Shown here: one piece after another, positions 4,528 to 58,369 of the stretch | Layout of the letters: each line of letters starts with the position of its first letter | Position numbering within the stretch: the first letter of the stretch is position 1 | From: Nitrososphaeraceae archaeon | Lineage (GTDB): Archaea; Thermoproteota; Nitrososphaeria; Nitrososphaerales; Nitrososphaeraceae | Assembly (NCBI GenBank): GCA_009377575.1 | Contig: WHTU01000012.1 | Span: 1 to 64,000, forward strand | Direction of reading: 5' to 3' | DNA: 64,000 nucleotides | Position numbers and translations under genes: made by a program | The notes under the pieces: model-generated | What the model was told of the DNA's origin: nothing | What the model saw: the letters and a program-made list of their open reading frames with translations, nothing else | The model's database searches: none

Positions 4528-4601
4528 GGGCCCATAGCTCAGCCTGGTAGAGCGACCGGCTCATAACCGGTCGGCCAGGGGTTCAAACCCCCTTGGGCCC
4601 A
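4528..4601 (+). tRNA. tRNA-Met (CAU)
   Basis: Acceptor GGGCCCA pairs with the 3' TTGGGCCC end. The D-arm is AGCTCAGCCTGGTAGAGC, the anticodon stem ACCGG/CCGGT encloses loop CTCATAA (anticodon CAT), and the T-arm is CAGGGG-TTCAAAC-CCCC. No intron. Strong GGG acceptor pairing and overall form suggest elongator tRNA-Met; CAU-tRNA-Ile2 cannot be excluded. Its 3' end is the integration site of the adjoining element, and the tRNA stays intact after integration. Confidence 0.95.
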
Positions 4602-4602
4602 C
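4586..4602 (+). repeat. attL: tRNA-Met 3' end, 17-bp integration core
   Basis: The 17 bases AACCCCCTTGGGCCCAC, from the T-arm through the acceptor 3' strand, recur perfectly at 39518-39534 in the same orientation. An integrase gene starts just downstream of each copy. This is the standard layout of a tyrosine-recombinase element integrated at a tRNA 3' end. Confidence 0.88.
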
Positions 4603-4690
4603 CCACTACGTGGGTTCATATACTTCTGGATATCTTAGAAGTGTTGATAGAATATCTGATGAACAATCGCCAGGAAGGGAGGTGGCACTG

Positions 4691-7296: not shown

Positions 7297-7348
7297 AAGC
7301 GTAGTAACTACGGATAATAATATTTATAACTTTTTCAGATCTTTCAGC

Positions 7349-39517: not shown

Positions 39518-39534
39518 AACCCCCTTGGGCCCAC
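39518..39534 (+). repeat. Second att copy (attR of element 1/attL of element 2)
   Basis: A perfect 17-bp copy of the tRNA-Met 3' end. Flanking bases on both sides differ from the tRNA, so only the core was copied. The second integrase starts 59 bp downstream, mirroring the first element. Confidence 0.88.
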
Positions 39535-42689: not shown

Positions 42690-43088
42690 ATGACCTACAT
42701 AGAGCACTTAGTAACAGAAAACTACAAGATTCAAGATACTGTATGCCAGGTAAATTGCCTGCTAATAGAGATACGAGAATTTCTAAGTGGATTAACACTG
42801 GAAAAACTAGACCATAAAGACGTTAAAGACGTTAAAGAAACTGATGAGTACAGATTAAAAATCGTAAAGGGATTGTCAAATCGAGAACTTGACATTCATA
42901 TATTCGAAGTATTGCGAACCTACGCTTTTCTTTCTGATCATTTAGACAAATTATATTTTGAAAAAGATAAGAGAGTAAAGTATGGTCTAATGCCAATAGA
43001 TGGCGGTGATTGGGAAGCTGCTAGTAACGGACGGCCTAGCATTGGTCCCAGAATCGATATGAAAGTGGAAGAGACTGGGTATGAATAG
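42690..43088 (+). CDS. Hypothetical helical protein
   Basis: 132 residues, 9 bp after the previous gene. Helical with a KDVKDVKETDEY repeat-like stretch and a C-terminal GGDWEAASNGRPSIGPRIDM tail. No family recognised. In the same early operon. Confidence 0.5.
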   Translation: MTYIEHLVTENYKIQDTVCQVNCLLIEIREFLSGLTLEKLDHKDVKDVKETDEYRLKIVKGLSNRELDIHIFEVLRTYAFLSDHLDKLYFEKDKRVKYGLMPIDGGDWEAASNGRPSIGPRIDMKVEETGYE

Positions 43089-43210
43089 ACACCAGAAGGA
43101 TAGAGAATTATATTCCATGTTCATTCGTAATAAAGTACATCAAGGTATTCGTAGACCATATCGCCAATCTGGTAAATGAACATCCCCCATGGAACTAGGA
43201 TTTCGTAGAT

Positions 43211-45541
43211 ATGACATCAACAACATCACCATCCGACGAACTAATTCTAACAAACTCAATAAAAGAGTACGGCATTTCTAAGATCACCAGGCATGGTTCC
43301 ACTAGAGAAGGATTTGCAATTCGTGTGACAATTAGAGATAAGCCATTAGTATTTGCTGTTAGTAACAATTGGAGTAGTGCATTAACAAATCTAAAAAAGG
43401 CATGTGAGCGATTTGATTATGGTAACGGTAATGCGCATGATAATAAAAGAACAACTCGAGAGCTGCTATGTATTCTTGAGTCTACTTTAGTTCAAAATCA
43501 TTCATGGGTGATGGGTTACGACCTTAAAGCAGCTGAAAATGGATTTACTGGAAGACCAAATAGTAGTGTTAATGATGATGGGGACGAATCGGCTGCAATA
43601 CCTAAACTACTTAGCATACCAGAAGCGATACGCACACATTCAGGAACAATCCTCATTAATGGTATAATAATTGCAATATCTGATATTTATCAGCTAATCA
43701 AGAAAGCACAATGGAAGTGTTATAAATGTAAGGAGACCATTGAAAGAGAAGTCGTCAATATCTTAGATATCCCGACAAAACCCAAAGAATGCATGAAGTG
43801 TGAAAGTAAACTTGGTTTCTCTGATAGTCATGAATATATCAATGCAGTATCTATAAGAGTACACCAGGAAGATAACAGAATAGATAATAACTTAGACAGT
43901 TTACGTGTAATCGTATTTGGTGAAGATACCTATAATATCCAGGTTGGGGAACGTACTAATATTTTAGGTGAGGTTGTAAAGCAACAAGACTATAGAACCA
44001 AACGATTCCATACAGTTCTACTTGCAAAGAGAATTCAATACGATGGTAGGAGGAAAATTGAGATAACGCCTGTTGACGTATGTGCAATTAAGAAGTTTAG
44101 GACATTTGTTAGTTATGAAAAAAGATTGGTCAGTATGTTTGCACCTAATGTTATCGGTCATTATGACGATAAAATTACTTTATTACTCGCAGCCATAGGA
44201 GCACCTGAATATTACGATAAGCGAACTAAGCACCAGTTAGTAAGGGGTAGAATCAATGTACTTTTGATAGGTCCTCCCGGCGAAGCAAAAACCGTATTAG
44301 GAAAGGAGGCTCTGAAACTGCGTATAAATAGCAGATATGTTTCTGGCAAAAATACCACTGGTGGCAGTTTAACAGCAATGATTTTATCAGATGACAATCA
44401 GCTAACATTACATTTAGGAGCAGCAGCACTTGCAAAGAATGCTTTTCTCTTCATAAACGAATTTGACAAGCTACATGATGAGAGCAAAGATAACCTTTTA
44501 GAAGTAATGGAGGAAGGTGAAATAATCGTAAACAAATTTGCACAATTGCGTGAGATAAGCTCTCCAACTTCTATAATTGCCAGTTCTAATCCAAGAAATG
44601 AAATCTGGATGTATCCAGATGAAATTGGACTTGAGGAATTACCATTCTCTCGGAGAATATTGAGCAGATTTGATGCGATCCGAGTCTTTAGAGATGCAAA
44701 TACCGAACACTCAGATATTGAATATGCTTATGCCAAAACAAGTGATATTGAGAAACATTTAGAATTCAATTATAACTTTCTCCAAAAAGTAATAGAGTAT
44801 GCAAGGACTATTGAACCAAGTCTTACCCCGCAAGCGGAAGGGATATTAAATCAATATTGGATTGAACTAAGAAAAAATGGGAATGCTACATATGACACAA
44901 CCAAAAGAACTTTAGAAGTTGTTCATAGATTTGCCAAAGCCTTTGCACGAATGAATCTATCAGAAACGGTAGATGCAGAAATAGCATACCAAACGATTGA
45001 TTTTATGAATAAGATGTTCAGAAATTTCAATCTAGATATTACAAATAAAATAGATCCGTTTATGAATGTATATTATAAAGTAATAGAATTTCTTAAAACT
45101 AAAACTGATATAGAAAAACCAATAGAGCTCGTTTCTGCCATTCAACGTGTCTGCCTACAATATGAAGATATTGCTGCCTATATAGGTGATATATTCAAAC
45201 AAAATCAGAATAGGAAGCTACGAGACCTTTGTACTAAGTTATTAGAAAACAGACATATAGTACGAGTTGGTGAGCATCCAACCAAAGTATATTGGAAACC
45301 CGATCCTCAAATCCTTGGTGACGTTGGTGACGTTGGTGACAGCCAAAAGTCACCCCCTGCATTTGAAAACGGACTTCAATGTAGCTATTTCGATCAAAAA
45401 AACAGTACGAGACAGAGTGGAGGTTATTCTCTTCAGAAAAACAGTGTGGGGTGTCAAAATATCGTGTCACCAACGTCACCAACGTCACCTAGTAATCAAG
45501 GAATGGATCCAACTGGTACAACAAAAAGGAGAAATGAATAG
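43211..45541 (+). CDS. MCM-like replicative helicase
   Basis: 776 residues. Order: N-terminal domain with a zinc finger (CYKCKET...CMKCESK, ~170-200) and OB-like strands, then the AAA+ module. Walker A is GPPGEAKT (354-361), and sensor/loop sequence follows. The Walker B region reads FLFINEFDKL, with Asn416 where MCMs have Asp. The arginine-finger region is ILSRFDAI, and the C-terminus is a winged helix. The C-terminal ~90 residues are low complexity with GDVGDVGD and SPTSPTSP segments, encoded by a 24-bp inverted repeat. Presumably unwinds DNA for element replication with the downstream polymerase and primase. Overlaps the polymerase gene by 8 bp. Confidence 0.9.
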   Translation: MTSTTSPSDELILTNSIKEYGISKITRHGSTREGFAIRVTIRDKPLVFAVSNNWSSALTNLKKACERFDYGNGNAHDNKRTTRELLCILESTLVQNHSWVMGYDLKAAENGFTGRPNSSVNDDGDESAAIPKLLSIPEAIRTHSGTILINGIIIAISDIYQLIKKAQWKCYKCKETIEREVVNILDIPTKPKECMKCESKLGFSDSHEYINAVSIRVHQEDNRIDNNLDSLRVIVFGEDTYNIQVGERTNILGEVVKQQDYRTKRFHTVLLAKRIQYDGRRKIEITPVDVCAIKKFRTFVSYEKRLVSMFAPNVIGHYDDKITLLLAAIGAPEYYDKRTKHQLVRGRINVLLIGPPGEAKTVLGKEALKLRINSRYVSGKNTTGGSLTAMILSDDNQLTLHLGAAALAKNAFLFINEFDKLHDESKDNLLEVMEEGEIIVNKFAQLREISSPTSIIASSNPRNEIWMYPDEIGLEELPFSRRILSRFDAIRVFRDANTEHSDIEYAYAKTSDIEKHLEFNYNFLQKVIEYARTIEPSLTPQAEGILNQYWIELRKNGNATYDTTKRTLEVVHRFAKAFARMNLSETVDAEIAYQTIDFMNKMFRNFNLDITNKIDPFMNVYYKVIEFLKTKTDIEKPIELVSAIQRVCLQYEDIAAYIGDIFKQNQNRKLRDLCTKLLENRHIVRVGEHPTKVYWKPDPQILGDVGDVGDSQKSPPAFENGLQCSYFDQKNSTRQSGGYSLQKNSVGCQNIVSPTSPTSPSNQGMDPTGTTKRRNE
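45317..45489. repeat. Perfect 24-bp inverted repeat in the 3' part of the MCM gene
   Basis: Arms 45317-45340 and 45466-45489 are exact reverse complements, each made of tandem GGTGAC(GTT) units (three on each arm). The loop is 125 nt. They end about 45 bp before the polymerase start. Could be a replication-origin iteron/hairpin or an RNA structure between the two genes; interpretation is inference. Confidence 0.85.
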
Positions 45542-47793: not shown

Positions 47794-48990
47794 ATGAATA
47801 TTACAAATATTGATCCAGCTGACACAATACACATAGATAAGGACAAAGCGATTGATGGTATTAATTCACTTATATCAATGTTTGAGATTATAGGTCAGCC
47901 AATTTTCCCTAGAAATATCATGACAGCTGAATATAGTGGCTTTTTCACAGTCCATGATATAGGTCAGTTATTTGATGCATTCGAGAGGGCAAGTTTCAAA
48001 GATTGTAGGATTTCAGCATATCCTCAGGCCAAAGAAAATAACATGTTAATCCCAAATCTCCTACTACTAGATCTGGATTATGATCATCGTTTGATAACTG
48101 ATAATAGTAAAGAATATGCAGATCAGATACTAAGGACTAAAGTAAACAAGATTCTGAAAAGACTGCAGCTAACCTACCACATAAGTAACTTTATGGTTAT
48201 GCGCACAGGAAATGGCAGACATATTTTACTACCTTTTCTATTTGACACACCTTTTGAGTATGTAGAAGAATTTTCAATGTATTTGCCGCTAATGAGATCT
48301 AAAAGTAAAAAGAATGTCAGTAACATTATAAGTGAGGAATTCCTGCCATTTGCAAAAAAGTATCTTTCTAACAATCAAGCTGATTTAGGCAATCATCCAA
48401 ATTTCGCATCCTTGTTCTTACGAGTGCCAGGTACAATAAACATGAAAATGAAGTACGGTACAATTGAGATTGTTAAAATTGAACACGAATGGAGCTATGA
48501 AAGTGATACCATTCCTGGTTTTGGCGATTTACATCCAGATACTGATATATTCTATGATTTTATGCACCATCTTGCATTAGCTGCAGGAAATTATCAGACC
48601 AAGAACAGGTTTGGTGGAGCTACCAATAGTACAACAAGAAAGAAGAACACAAGTAGATCTTATAATTGGGTTGAAGTATTATGGGATACTGGAGTATCTG
48701 ATTGCAGAAAAAGAATCCTCTGGTTGATCCTTACTCCATACGCAATTAATGTAAAGAAAATGTTGCATCAGGATGCTTTTATATGGGTAAAGCAATGGGC
48801 CGATCGTTGTGATTCTATCACTAAATTCGATCCTAATTATAACATTGAAGAAAAAATAGATTATTATCTTAATGTTGCCAAGGATACAGGATATCTCCCA
48901 CCTTCACTTGAAAAACTAGCAACATACCAATGGAAATTGACTGATGGTATTGATCTGTATGATTTAATCAAAAATAAAATGAATAGTTAA
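47794..48990 (+). CDS. Archaeo-eukaryotic-type primase
   Basis: 398 residues, starting 8 bp after the polymerase. The DxD motif is LLLLDLDYD (Asp93, Asp95), the conserved histidine is in MRTGNGRHILLP (His143), and LFLRVPGTINMKMKYG is typical of the primase-polymerase (AEP) domains of plasmids and viruses. The C-terminal ~130 residues (ILWLILTPYAINVKKM) resemble a PriCT-like helical domain. Expected to make primers, possibly with some polymerase activity. Confidence 0.88.
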   Translation: MNITNIDPADTIHIDKDKAIDGINSLISMFEIIGQPIFPRNIMTAEYSGFFTVHDIGQLFDAFERASFKDCRISAYPQAKENNMLIPNLLLLDLDYDHRLITDNSKEYADQILRTKVNKILKRLQLTYHISNFMVMRTGNGRHILLPFLFDTPFEYVEEFSMYLPLMRSKSKKNVSNIISEEFLPFAKKYLSNNQADLGNHPNFASLFLRVPGTINMKMKYGTIEIVKIEHEWSYESDTIPGFGDLHPDTDIFYDFMHHLALAAGNYQTKNRFGGATNSTTRKKNTSRSYNWVEVLWDTGVSDCRKRILWLILTPYAINVKKMLHQDAFIWVKQWADRCDSITKFDPNYNIEEKIDYYLNVAKDTGYLPPSLEKLATYQWKLTDGIDLYDLIKNKMNS

Positions 48991-48996
48991 GAGATC

Positions 48997-49218
48997 TTAT
49001 TTCTTCTTTGATTGATAAATAGTTTCTGTGGCAGTAGCTCTTACCTCACTATTTCTAATTCTACTTTTTTCATTGGTCTTATCATAATCAGGTGATTTAC
49101 ATACTGGGCACATACGTGGCTTCTTTTTATACTCCTGCTTGAAAATTCTGGGTACCCATTTATAACCACATTGTTCGCACATGTATCCTTTTTCTGTCTT
49201 AGTAATATCAATTTGCAT
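48997..49218 (-). CDS. Zinc-ribbon protein
   Basis: 73 residues, leftward at the end of the replication block. YMCEQCGYKWVPRIF, then PRMCPVCKSPDY are two CxxC knuckles, rubredoxin-like or C4 ribbon. The C-terminal helix is charged. Divergent from the next gene, with a 190-bp regulatory gap. Probable nucleic-acid-binding or adaptor protein. Confidence 0.75.
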   Translation of the reverse strand: MQIDITKTEKGYMCEQCGYKWVPRIFKQEYKKKPRMCPVCKSPDYDKTNEKSRIRNSEVRATATETIYQSKKK

Positions 49219-49269
49219 ACTGGTACTTTCTCCTTTATCTATTATTGACCATTGAGCTATAAAATCATT

Positions 49270-49371
49270 GCTACGTCAACCACGTAACTAACGTAGCTAA
49301 GTAAAGGTTTAAATTTGAGGGGATATATAACTAGAGTATGTTCAAAAAAGACATATTCTCTATAAGAGAAT
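49270..49371 (+). promoter_or_regulatory. Divergent promoter region with two inverted repeats
   Basis: GCTACGT (49270-49276) pairs with ACGTAGC (49291-49297), with a third ACGT between. A TATA-like ATATATA follows at 49323-49329. About 27 bp further on is ATTCTCT-ATA-AGAGAAT (49355-49371), a near-perfect palindrome at the expected start of transcription of the rightward gene. These look like operators or a leader hairpin. Confidence 0.5.
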
Positions 49372-49408
49372 CAAAAAATAGGAACATAGTGGGTCTAATT
49401 TTTTAAAG

Positions 49409-49987
49409 ATGACTCTAGAAGAAGTCAGAAAACGTAATGCAGAACGAAAACAAATAATGCAGTCCAGAAGTGCAGGAAGATTCCTGAAATTCGTAGACGA
49501 TCAAGATGCAATGGTCATAAAGATCGTAGCACCATTTGAGGGATTTGATCGTGAAGTCAAGGACATGCAGGGTAAAAAGAGATTAAAACCTCATTACCGT
49601 GCACACATCTTAAGTGACTGGAATTATGACACTGGACAGCCAATCACTCATCCCAGAATAGAACTAACTGCAAACGACATTCGCGCATTGAAGATTGAAG
49701 ACACAAAGATATGGTCAACTCCCCAATCTGCAGTACAAGGAATTCTAAGGGAAATTGATAAGGGCCATTCGATTTTGCTGGTAAGAAGAGATGGGCAAGC
49801 AAAGAGCACTACTACAACGTACAATGTGCTGTACGCACTTCAAATGGATGAACAAGATATGCAAAACCTATTACCGAAGCTGACGAAAGATGAACTAGCA
49901 AAACTTCAAGAGGAAGAGAAATTCGATAAGATTTCTGAAAAGGAAATAGAGGTACTTCAAAATTTCGGAAGCGATAAAGAGAATTAA
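49409..49987 (+). CDS. Possible ssDNA-binding protein (OB-like)
   Basis: 192 residues. The core from ~25 to ~130 is strand-rich and ordered like an OB fold (RFLKFVDDQDAMVIKIVAPF, YRAHILSDWNYDTGQPITHP, HSILLVRRDGQAKST), and the last ~50 residues are acidic (LTKDELAKLQEEEKF), a common feature of single-strand-binding proteins. Position in the replication block supports the idea. No exact family match recognised. Confidence 0.5.
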   Translation: MTLEEVRKRNAERKQIMQSRSAGRFLKFVDDQDAMVIKIVAPFEGFDREVKDMQGKKRLKPHYRAHILSDWNYDTGQPITHPRIELTANDIRALKIEDTKIWSTPQSAVQGILREIDKGHSILLVRRDGQAKSTTTTYNVLYALQMDEQDMQNLLPKLTKDELAKLQEEEKFDKISEKEIEVLQNFGSDKEN

Positions 49988-51804: not shown

Positions 51805-52074
51805 TAAAAAGTGATCCTATTTGATATGTAATTATTATCCTATTGACAAAACTGAAGAGACATCCTAAACGCATCGAACAAATCATTATGGCTAGTTGCT
51901 TATTTATCTAATGTCCCATCCCCCTTCTCTACCGCAGTCCTTAATGAAGTAATTAACTTTGTGCACTTGGGATTGATTATTCAATGACTATGGATATGGA
52001 TCTGATGATTATGGATTTTATTCATGTGATACAAATACATAAAGCTGGCTTATGCGAAGAATTTGTTGCATAAA

Positions 52075-52799: not shown

Positions 52800-53081
52800 C
52801 AAAGAACAAATGCTAGGAGCTTCACAACATTCAGCCGCGCACATTTATTACATGAAAGCGAAAATTTTCGTGTTGGAACTACCCGGAAGCTCATATTCAA
52901 GAAGAAGATTTCGACACGCATAAACCTGCATGACACAGAGCAAATTGTAATAGGGTCCTTGTGGGAATTTTCGTTCGACCATGAACTTAACATTGAATTG
53001 ATTCAGTTTGGACTTGACTGCGGCTTTGGGGAAAGGAATTCGATGGGATTTGGCTTTGTGAACGTAAAGAAGATGCCATAA
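52800..53081 (+). pseudogene. cas6: Cas6 C-terminal relic
   Basis: 93 codons with no start. FRVGTTRKLIFKKKI, then IVIGSLWEFSFDHELNIELI and FGLDCGFGERNSMGFGFVNV. The last phrase is the glycine-rich loop (GxGxRxSxGFGxV) that marks the Cas6 crRNA-processing endoribonuclease. The N-terminal ferredoxin-like domain with the catalytic region is missing, and an in-frame TAA precedes the first codon. It ends 84 bp before the first CRISPR repeat, in the same orientation. Confidence 0.72.
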
Positions 53082-53164
53082 TGTTTGGGCATTTATAAAT
53101 AGATAACATGACTTGCCATAACCAACTTATGATTCATTATGGGTTTTGAGTGTGGAACGTCGGG

Positions 53165-53418
53165 GTTTAAATCGAACTATGCTAGGATTGAAAGATATCT
53201 ATTACAGCTGCGCTAATGCCAGCGATACTCAGTTTAAATCGAACTATGATAGGATTGAAAGTGGATCCAAGACAACACGGTCGGTATTCAAACTCCGGAT
53301 TTAAACCGAACTATGCTAGGATTAACACTAGAAGACATCACACAAATGCTGTCAAGTTGACTTCAGTCCGCTGCCTATTTGTGTCCCAAGTTGAATCGAA
53401 CAATATTAGGATTGAAAC
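53165..53418 (+). CRISPR. Short degenerate CRISPR array (4 repeats)
   Basis: 30-bp repeats at 53165-53194, 53232-53261, 53299-53328 and 53389-53418. Shared core is ATCGAACTATGCTAGGATTG, with a 3' end ATTGAAAG or ATTGAAAC typical of archaeal CRISPRs. Repeats 1 and 2 differ at one base; 3 and 4 carry several changes. Spacers are 37, 37 and 60 nt and unrelated. Degeneracy at the right end puts the leader on the left, next to the Cas6 relic. No other cas gene seen in the window. Confidence 0.75.
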
Positions 53419-53835: not shown

Positions 53836-54726
53836 ATGCCTAATTGTGGTATCAAATTGGTGTATGCAGAAACCAATGAGGTCAAAGGGATAATATGCCA
53901 CATTGAGGCCTATAACGAAGGAGGCCCACGATATAATCTCCGACAGGATAAAAAAGAAAGGAATGATTACCGTAATCTCATACTATTGTGTCCTAATTGT
54001 CATACCGATATTGATAAAAATCCAGGGAAATATTCAGTCGCTTATCTTCAAAAGGTAAAACGAGACCATGAATCAAGATTCATGAATAATCCTTATGAGG
54101 TTCCGGGGAATATTACACAGATATTGAGGATATCGATCAACCAAGACGAGTTTTCCCTTAATAAGATCGTTTCATTATTTAAAATTTATTTTGAACTAAC
54201 AGATTCCAATGTTAAAGGGTGTTTTTATCGTGACAGGCTCGGTTATTCATTAAGGAACATAAAACTAACTACTCTTGAGACTGATTCAGCAACAAGATTA
54301 CAACTAGATGAGATCTTTAAGTTAATTTGCAGACTGCCAGACAATGAGTTTATAGACTCTTTTCTTACGTTACATGACAAGGTTCCATGTCAGATCTTTA
54401 AAGAATATGCAGAACAGTACCTGGTTCGGCTTAAAAAAAGCCTAGACAAATCAATGGACAAAAACTTCTCGAGTCTGTATTGGATAGTTCACAAAAAAGA
54501 TCTGACATCACTTCTTAATTTGATCAAAGAAGCTGGCCTCTATAGTCCGGGAAGTTTCAGCGATTTGATCAAGGATTTCGACTACGGCCAATTAGATGAG
54601 AATACTAAGTTTGAAATTGAACTAAACCTATGGAAAAAGTTAGATAGAGAAAAAGATAGAGAAAGCAATCTCTACAAGAATTTGTATCAGTTGGATAACA
54701 TTATATTCAATTCACTTCAGACCTAA
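53836..54726 (+). CDS. HNH endonuclease-domain protein
   Basis: 296 residues from the first ATG. The HNH core is split by that ATG: the frame is open from 53737 and upstream codons encode IVKKLFALSGNRCA, so the first zinc cysteine lies before it. The core then runs MPNCGIKLVYAETNEVKGII, CHIEAYNEGGPRYN, ILLCPNCHTDIDKNPGKYS, with HRN-like residues and CPNC. The C-terminal ~200 residues are helical and unrecognised. No ATG, GTG or TTG exists upstream in frame, so the native start is either non-canonical or the gene has lost its 5' end. Confidence 0.72.
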   Translation: MPNCGIKLVYAETNEVKGIICHIEAYNEGGPRYNLRQDKKERNDYRNLILLCPNCHTDIDKNPGKYSVAYLQKVKRDHESRFMNNPYEVPGNITQILRISINQDEFSLNKIVSLFKIYFELTDSNVKGCFYRDRLGYSLRNIKLTTLETDSATRLQLDEIFKLICRLPDNEFIDSFLTLHDKVPCQIFKEYAEQYLVRLKKSLDKSMDKNFSSLYWIVHKKDLTSLLNLIKEAGLYSPGSFSDLIKDFDYGQLDENTKFEIELNLWKKLDREKDRESNLYKNLYQLDNIIFNSLQT

Positions 54727-55350
54727 AATGATGAAATGCTCTAAAAGAAGCTTAGAGAAATTTATTGCTGTACTAATCTAGTTGAATCGTCGGCGTGGTA
54801 CAAGCATAGATCAGATTATTATTGTCGGTTGCTCATGATTCTATTTATCTCAGTAATTATGACGGAACATTTTGCATGTGCCGGAACGCCTGATACGACA
54901 CTCCCGAATAATGCCTCCTGGCTATCCTTCCCAGCTGCTGACGACGAGTAACGATATGTTGAATATAATAGGGTTGACTCCACTGCTATCCCCAGCAATA
55001 GCCACTCATCCCCATCCCACATTCTCAATTGTACTCTGGTCATCAATTGTCATTTCTACTGTTGTAGGGGATGATAATGGTGATGGATGATCGTAGCTCT
55101 CCTCACTCTGAGGCTTGAGGACAATTCTCTATATCTTCTGAATCCACTAGCATATCACCATCAGAAGAAGAGCCATTCCCTCTACCGTGGCAGCAACGTG
55201 TAGTACGAGTGGTGTAGTACGAGTCGTCGGTGGGGGAATAACGGAAATAAGGACAGCCACGATTAGGCAAGCGGCGGGATTAACGTCCATATCTCCACAC
55301 AATCCTAAATGTTTTTCAAATATCATGAGTATGATACAAAGGGCTATCGC
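54727..55350. other. Gene-poor region
   Basis: No identifiable gene. Leftward stretches rich in small residues (GDSSGVNPIIFNISLVV) suggest remains of a surface protein, in several frames. Confidence 0.35.
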
Positions 55351-56052
55351 ATGGACAGGGACTATCCAATTATGATAAATCGGTTTTATAACAATGCGGA
55401 TATGAATAATGCTACTGGCTTTCTTTATCATGACAAAGATGGAAATAAATGGTTAATTACTGCAAAACATATTCTATTCTCTTGCATGAATAATGGACTC
55501 CCTTTCACAAGGGTTAATGTGATGTTCAGCAAGATTAACTCGTCAACTTACTTGCCAATAGGGTTAAGCGACATCCTCAAACATGGAAAAATTCACGCTA
55601 ATGAAGATGTAGATATTGCCATGATCGAGATTTCACAGTTGCTTGAGGGCAGGTATCTTGTGAGTAAAGTATATTCCAACTTCGGATTTTTTACCGATTC
55701 GACTGTCATTAAACAAAAGCTCCGAGAAGGAGCATCAGTTTGTGTAACGGGGTATCCGGAGAAGGACCTCGACTATAATACAACTTCTCTAAGAATATTA
55801 TGCGGGAAGGTAATACCCTGCCCACCTGAAGAACTTTCTCCAACTCTAAGATATTGCTTCTGTATTGACCAGCCGATAGAAAAAGGAATGTCTGGAAGCC
55901 CAGCCATTACTTCAAATGTGGAGGACTCTGATTCCATGCTTGCTGGAGTATGTGTAACCAGATTACAAAATGGTAAGATTGCAGGAGGCATCCAACCATC
56001 ATACCTCCTTAGAGACATCATTGACGAGGGTATAAGTCTGAGGACTAAGTAA
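55351..56052 (+). CDS. Trypsin-like (S1 fold) serine protease
   Basis: 233 residues from ATG 55351 (a start at 55309 would add 14 residues). Catalytic triad: His in LITAKHILFSC, Asp in NEDVDIAMIEI, Ser in IEKGMSGSPAITS. CVTGYPEKDL also fits intracellular trypsin-like domains. No signal peptide. Such proteases occur as effectors in bacterial and archaeal defence modules, but no partner gene is adjacent. Confidence 0.85.
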   Translation: MDRDYPIMINRFYNNADMNNATGFLYHDKDGNKWLITAKHILFSCMNNGLPFTRVNVMFSKINSSTYLPIGLSDILKHGKIHANEDVDIAMIEISQLLEGRYLVSKVYSNFGFFTDSTVIKQKLREGASVCVTGYPEKDLDYNTTSLRILCGKVIPCPPEELSPTLRYCFCIDQPIEKGMSGSPAITSNVEDSDSMLAGVCVTRLQNGKIAGGIQPSYLLRDIIDEGISLRTK

Positions 56053-58177: not shown

Positions 58178-58240
58178 ATTTATTTCAGCACTAGCCTCAT
58201 AAACAGGGATTCATAATAGCAATAAAAATATACTTTTAGT

Positions 58241-58369
58241 CTATTCTAATTCTGCTCTTATACGTCTTACTAATACATCTGTAGCAATTGGTTTCTTGAT
58301 GAAGCACCCTATGCTCTTAATTAGATGCACCTCCCTTACAGCATCCATATTTATTTCTCCAGAAGAAAT
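58241..58369 (-). pseudogene. Response-regulator receiver C-terminal relic
   Basis: Reads SSGEINMDAVREVHLIKSIG, then CFIKKPIATDVLVRRIRAEL to a TAG. FIKKPI is the conserved Lys-Pro of receiver domains. The phosphoacceptor part is missing. Confidence 0.6.

Follow-up and report, generated by a model that had tools for sequence, protein, structure and literature searches.

The stretch of DNA analysed here (hereafter the window) comprises 64,000 nt of contig WHTU01000012.1 from a soil-type Nitrososphaeraceae archaeon and carries, between positions 52,800 and 53,418, a cas6-like frame followed by a short series of direct repeats. The question raised by this locus is whether it still functions or is what remains of a system that has been lost. 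In our judgement it is very likely the remnant of a lost type I-B CRISPR-Cas system and inactive; we infer both its present inactivity and the order of losses proposed below. The sequence-only reading had also taken it for a relic, and this is borne out by a Cas6 fragment, genuine repeats, the failure to find other cas genes in the genome, the same decayed cas6-leader-array unit in the congener TH526, and related genera whose intact loci carry this repeat.

The stop-to-stop frame covers positions 52800-53078, with its stop codon at 53079-53081, and comprises 93 codons. Residues 20-88 of the translated frame match positions 65-125 of 125 of the Pfam family PF01881 (Cas_Cas6_C) with 45.3 bits and an E value of 1.9e-11 (cut-off 23 bits), and the PADLOC Cas6 and Cas6b models also match. 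The frame had been read earlier as a Cas6 C-terminus, a claim to be given up if it failed a Cas6 profile search, and it has come through that search. Positions 141-200 of 200 of TIGR01877 are matched with 42.5 bits, which lies below the whole-protein cut-off of 58.65 as is expected for a fragment. The frame holds the C-terminal ~65 residues of Cas6. A scan for ATG, GTG and TTG codons found no start in the frame 52800-53081 before its last 40 codons, which marks the frame as a piece of a gene and not as a small gene of its own. Alignment showed that the N-terminal half of Cas6 is absent, including the histidine of the LH[DN] motif that is invariant in ten of ten intact relatives. In place of the complete Cas6 with catalytic residue of a functional I-B system, the locus therefore has the C-terminal part only, with neither a start nor the catalytic histidine region. 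An insertion splitting cas6, with the N-terminal half lying beyond it, was considered and rejected because tblastn of the window gave no cas6 N-terminal half.

Table 1. Features of the cas6-array remnant and the att site to its left (window positions; repeat scores are matches to the I-B consensus)
Feature	Position	Strand	Description	Support
cas6 3' remnant	52871..53081	+	C-terminal part of type I-B cas6, Gly-rich loop GFGERNSMGFGF	PF01881 E 1.9e-11; TH526 DNA homology from ~52871; start-codon scan; alignment
Leader remnant	53082..53164	+	cas6-repeat 1 interval	TH526 homology (blastn 74% identity across 52908-53249); leader comparison, modest support
Repeat 1	53165..53194	+	29/30, 5' handle ATTGAAAG intact	
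Spacer 1	53195..53231	+	37 nt, protospacer not found	
Repeat 2	53232..53261	+	30/30	
Spacer 2	53262..53298	+	37 nt, protospacer not found	
Repeat 3	53299..53328	+	Degenerate, 24/30, handle lost (ATTAACAC)	
Third interval	53329..53388	+	60 nt, inner repeat remnant absent (best 12/30), protospacer not found	
Repeat 4 (last)	53389..53418	+	Degenerate, 23/30, handle ATTGAAAC intact	
tRNA-Met 3'-end copy (att site)	39520..39534	+	Left edge of second integrated element	

Four 30-nt repeats matching the I-B consensus GTTTAAATCGAACTATGATAGGATTGAAAG of related Nitrososphaerales follow the fragment at periods of 67, 67 and 90 nt (Table 1), the best scores in five shuffles of the window being 19-20 of 30. 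The 37, 37 and 60 nt between them are dissimilar in sequence, so that the locus has the direct repeats and unique spacers of a CRISPR array, with constant spacing up to an irregular third interval. The repeat and spacer lengths given in the sequence-only reading hold, the distance from the cas6 stop to repeat 1 being 83 nt; its description of four decaying repeats is right for repeats 3 and 4 and not for repeats 1 and 2, which are essentially at consensus. No hairpin better than those of shuffled sequences was found in the repeat. The leader-like sequence 5' of repeat 1 is common to TH526 and in part to related arrays, and its ungapped leader profile score is just 2.7 SD above background, a level reached by 0.3% of window positions. 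The relic is oriented from leader to trailer on the + strand. It had been proposed to match the spacers to elements of the window and to viruses; no target beyond noise was found in the window, the fetched loci, 101 relatives, viral contigs (searched with exact 19-21-mers) or phage and plasmid records. A virus-borne mini-CRISPR was also considered and was rejected since the repeat core has no exact match in the viral contigs and the other copies of the repeat sit in genomic contigs.

The remainder of the system was sought in the genome assembly (3.89 Mb in 380 contigs, 99% complete). The fragment at 52800-53081 is the single Cas6_C match, neither PF10040 Cas6 nor RAMP proteins were found, and Cas1 was found in none of the genomes G000 to G004, G000 being the genome studied here. 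A query of I-B Cas7, Cas5 and Cas3 against this genome gave as its sole match a 938-aa helicase (E 5e-4) that was taken as unrelated background; helicase matches of a similar kind were obtained in most genomes tested. The cas-gene searches covered Cas6_C, PF10040, Cas1, Cas3/Cas5/Cas7 and RAMP proteins. With this scope, the Cas8/Cas7/Cas5 and Cas3 set of a functional I-B system is missing as judged by Cas7, Cas5 and Cas3, and the adaptation pair Cas1/Cas2 as judged by Cas1. With an assembly in 380 contigs, a missing piece is possible.

A scan of the genome for the repeat with at most three mismatches identified three places, namely the window array and copies on contigs C377 and C11. The first of these copies consists of two good repeats and a broken third (at 7329, 7395 and ~7461). 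The second is a single repeat with the leader-like motif CGGAGGTTGAC and GGGG in front of it, and it lies directly behind a fragment from the N-terminal part of a tyrosine recombinase. No recognised cas genes lie beside either copy in the stretches read, and both look like shrunken arrays. The search for further repeat copies and a full Cas6 that the sequence-only reading had called for thus returned copies, themselves decayed, and no full Cas6. The homology of the tyrosine recombinase fragment (L010 9528-9890; G000:C11:61528-61890) stops shortly before the leader-like sequence and single repeat, and a comparable leader-plus-single-repeat locus is present at G066:C4. The short array of C377 (L009 7321-7487) lies between two copies of the 8-bp direct repeat TCACGGCC, which may represent a target-site duplication. 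Orthology of this array with a mini-array in the genome G003 was considered and rejected, as the flanks are 92-97% identical but rearranged and the arrays are not orthologous; compared with G000:C377 1613-4122, the relative (L080, G003:C163) has an inversion and an unrelated 4.1-kb stretch with its own two-repeat array.

Evidence for the kind of system from which the locus derives came from a comparison set of 101 genomes of the same order, our own included, in which the repeat is present at two or fewer mismatches in 35 and a match to the Cas6 fragment in 15. Gene names in the operons of these relatives were assigned by position and by matches from one locus to another; for Cas1 and Cas6 the names were confirmed with family models. 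On these assignments cas6, cas3, cas4 and cas1 precede a large array with closely similar repeats in four genomes (G007, G027, G045 and G061), the first of which also has cas8, cas7 and cas5. The order in G043 and G016 is array, cas6, cas8, cas7, cas5, cas3, and no Cas1 was found in G016. The window locus resembles the Nitrososphaerales I-B locus on contig C29 of G007 (L086; cas6-cas8-cas7-cas5-cas3-cas4-cas1, then array) in having a nearly identical repeat (29/30), 30-nt repeats, spacers of ~36-37 nt and a Cas6 of the same family, but it has kept the 3' part of cas6 alone of all these genes and its array is down to four repeats.

A similarly decayed unit is seen in TH526, a member of the same genus (JAATVR010000365.1, L071), in which a near full-length cas6 with one frameshift and the catalytic histidine lost is followed after ~90 nt by one good and one broken repeat. 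DNA homology to the window extends over 52871-53249 at 74% identity and takes in the cas6 end, the leader stretch and repeat 1. Both loci have cas6, ~90 nt and the start of an array in direct succession; in TH526, unlike the window, cas6 is almost full-length, only one repeat is good, and cas3 fragments remain on two other contigs. G030 and G008 also have cas6 pseudogenes, near which no further cas gene of the I-B set lies. This I-B system has thus decayed more than once in the family.

Comparison of the window with TH526 over 65 shared codons showed 53 base differences, of which 32 fall at third positions (P 6e-5 for an expectation of one third), and a dN/dS of ~0.07 to 0.17 by three methods. 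The low dN/dS and the third-position excess show that selection acted on the protein encoded by the cas6 end during much of the period after the two lineages separated. As the cas6-leader-array junction is common to both congeners, loss or displacement of the neighbouring genes probably preceded the split. The simplest reading of these sequences is that a cas6-array unit would have been served by effector genes in trans, and that both lineages subsequently lost these genes or had them broken. Selection of this kind might instead mean that, once the remainder of the system had gone, the C-terminal piece was retained as a protein that binds RNA without catalysis. In agreement with this, the mean identity of the C-terminal part to intact Cas6 (window 0.51, TH526 0.49, G008 0.48) is as high as that among intact proteins (0.49), while in TH526 Cas6 the N-terminal and middle regions have diverged further (0.32 and 0.34, compared with 0.49 and 0.51 among intact Cas6), and dN/dS is about 0.1. 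Such retention is nonetheless extremely unlikely: the frame lacks a start before its last 40 codons, the intact Cas6 proteins of G043 and G016 also have diverged N-terminal parts, just four relics are known and one of these (G030) keeps both halves, and the dN/dS is explained by purifying selection before a recent loss. Just as improbable is the wider proposal that, following loss of the I-B effector, selection in several Nitrososphaeraceae has preserved the RNA-binding C-terminal half, leader and a few intact repeats as a regulator that binds RNA without catalysis.

Two further readings would have the array itself alive. The sequence-only reading had allowed for an orphan mini-array in which a Cas6 encoded elsewhere still matures crRNAs from the intact first repeats for use in trans. 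Repeats 1 and 2 are all but perfect, and integrated elements of thaumarchaea are known to carry cas-less arrays in hosts that possess a matching cas operon (PMC6563490). Since no second Cas6_C, PF10040 Cas6, Cas1, I-B Cas3/Cas5/Cas7 or RAMP protein was found in the genome, and repeat 3 has lost its handle, we regard this as very improbable. The second reading is a toxin-antitoxin RNA module like creTA, in which a cas6-adjacent mini-array would use a spacer and Cascade to keep a small toxic RNA repressed. In Haloarcula hispanica creTA lies between cas6 and cas8, and creA consists of degenerate repeats (PMC8501985). The window likewise has repeat-like units beside cas6, starting 83 nt after it, and the genome G076 has a lone repeat between cas6 and cas8. 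However, in creA genes the repeats, one or two in number, are highly divergent and a leader is lacking (PMC8501985), whereas the window locus has four units, two of them near-perfect, three array-spaced intervals and a leader-like sequence before repeat 1. No Cascade was found, so that a live creT would be de-repressed, and the chance that the locus is such a module appears minimal. The G076 locus is in its own right a candidate creTA-like module: its lone repeat (26/30, G076:C8:26613; L105 10614) lies in a gap of ~1.6 kb that holds no long ORF and separates cas6 from the following cas gene, while the I-B operon is otherwise well preserved.

The surroundings of the relic are those of integrated elements. 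A tRNA-Met at 4528-4603 is followed by two integrases, and immediately before each of them stands the sequence of the tRNA 3' end (CCCCCTTGGGCCCAC, at 4588-4602 and 39520-39534; 0.01 expected by chance). This tRNA-Met carries two integrated elements in tandem. The right att of the second element was not found up to contig position 66460. On contig C37 of TH526 the same tRNA is present with an integrase directly after it, and window 42747-43829 and 48290-49963 have homologues there. From the second att copy it is 13 kb to the relic, which belongs to the second tRNA-Met element or its degenerate tail, or lies beside it. Integrated elements of thaumarchaea are known to carry I-B loci and also cas-less arrays, the latter explained by cas loss (PMC6563490). 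NCAV2-E1 and NitIsl-E1 are examples, with an array near or on the element and no cas genes, there read as I-B cas loss, but their arrays have 69-96 spacers and their hosts a matching cas operon (PMC6563490); no such operon was found in the genome studied here. Right after the array remnant, window 53836-54726 and 55309-56052 encode an HNH-domain protein and a trypsin-like protein, possibly defence genes, the former matching PADLOC HNH effectors (CBASS, SduA, PDC-M68A). Two families of ~120-bp intergenic repeats occur at window 51840-51978 and 58239-58365, with many copies, ~71-89% identical, in four congeneric genomes.

CRISPR loci are often gained and lost. In type I-B systems an array is not matured without a catalytic Cas6, and without Cascade and Cas3 a crRNA has nothing to load into. 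On the relic reading, the ancestral cas6 would have made crRNAs for an I-B Cascade/Cas3 system using the GTTTAAATCGAACTATGATAGGATTGAAAG repeat. Loss of the effector and adaptation genes would then have left cas6 directly before the leader and a short array, and later, in the lineage of the window itself, the N-terminal half of cas6 would have been lost and the array reduced to four repeats, with degeneration of the two distal ones. With the rest of the system not found in the genome, the locus should give no mature crRNA and no immunity. The nearly perfect state of repeats 1 and 2 and of the copies on C377 and C11 counts against a relic, as does the strong purifying selection on the cas6 C-terminal part between this genome and TH526; together they suggest that the decay is recent or that part of the locus mattered for long. 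As an object the relic is ordinary. It places a CRISPR remnant beside tRNA-integrated mobile elements, and it is mildly useful in illustrating how such a locus decays step by step in a single archaeal family, whose genomes show cas6 accompanied by leader and short array, cas6 with a frameshift, the tail of cas6 alone, and a leader with a single repeat.
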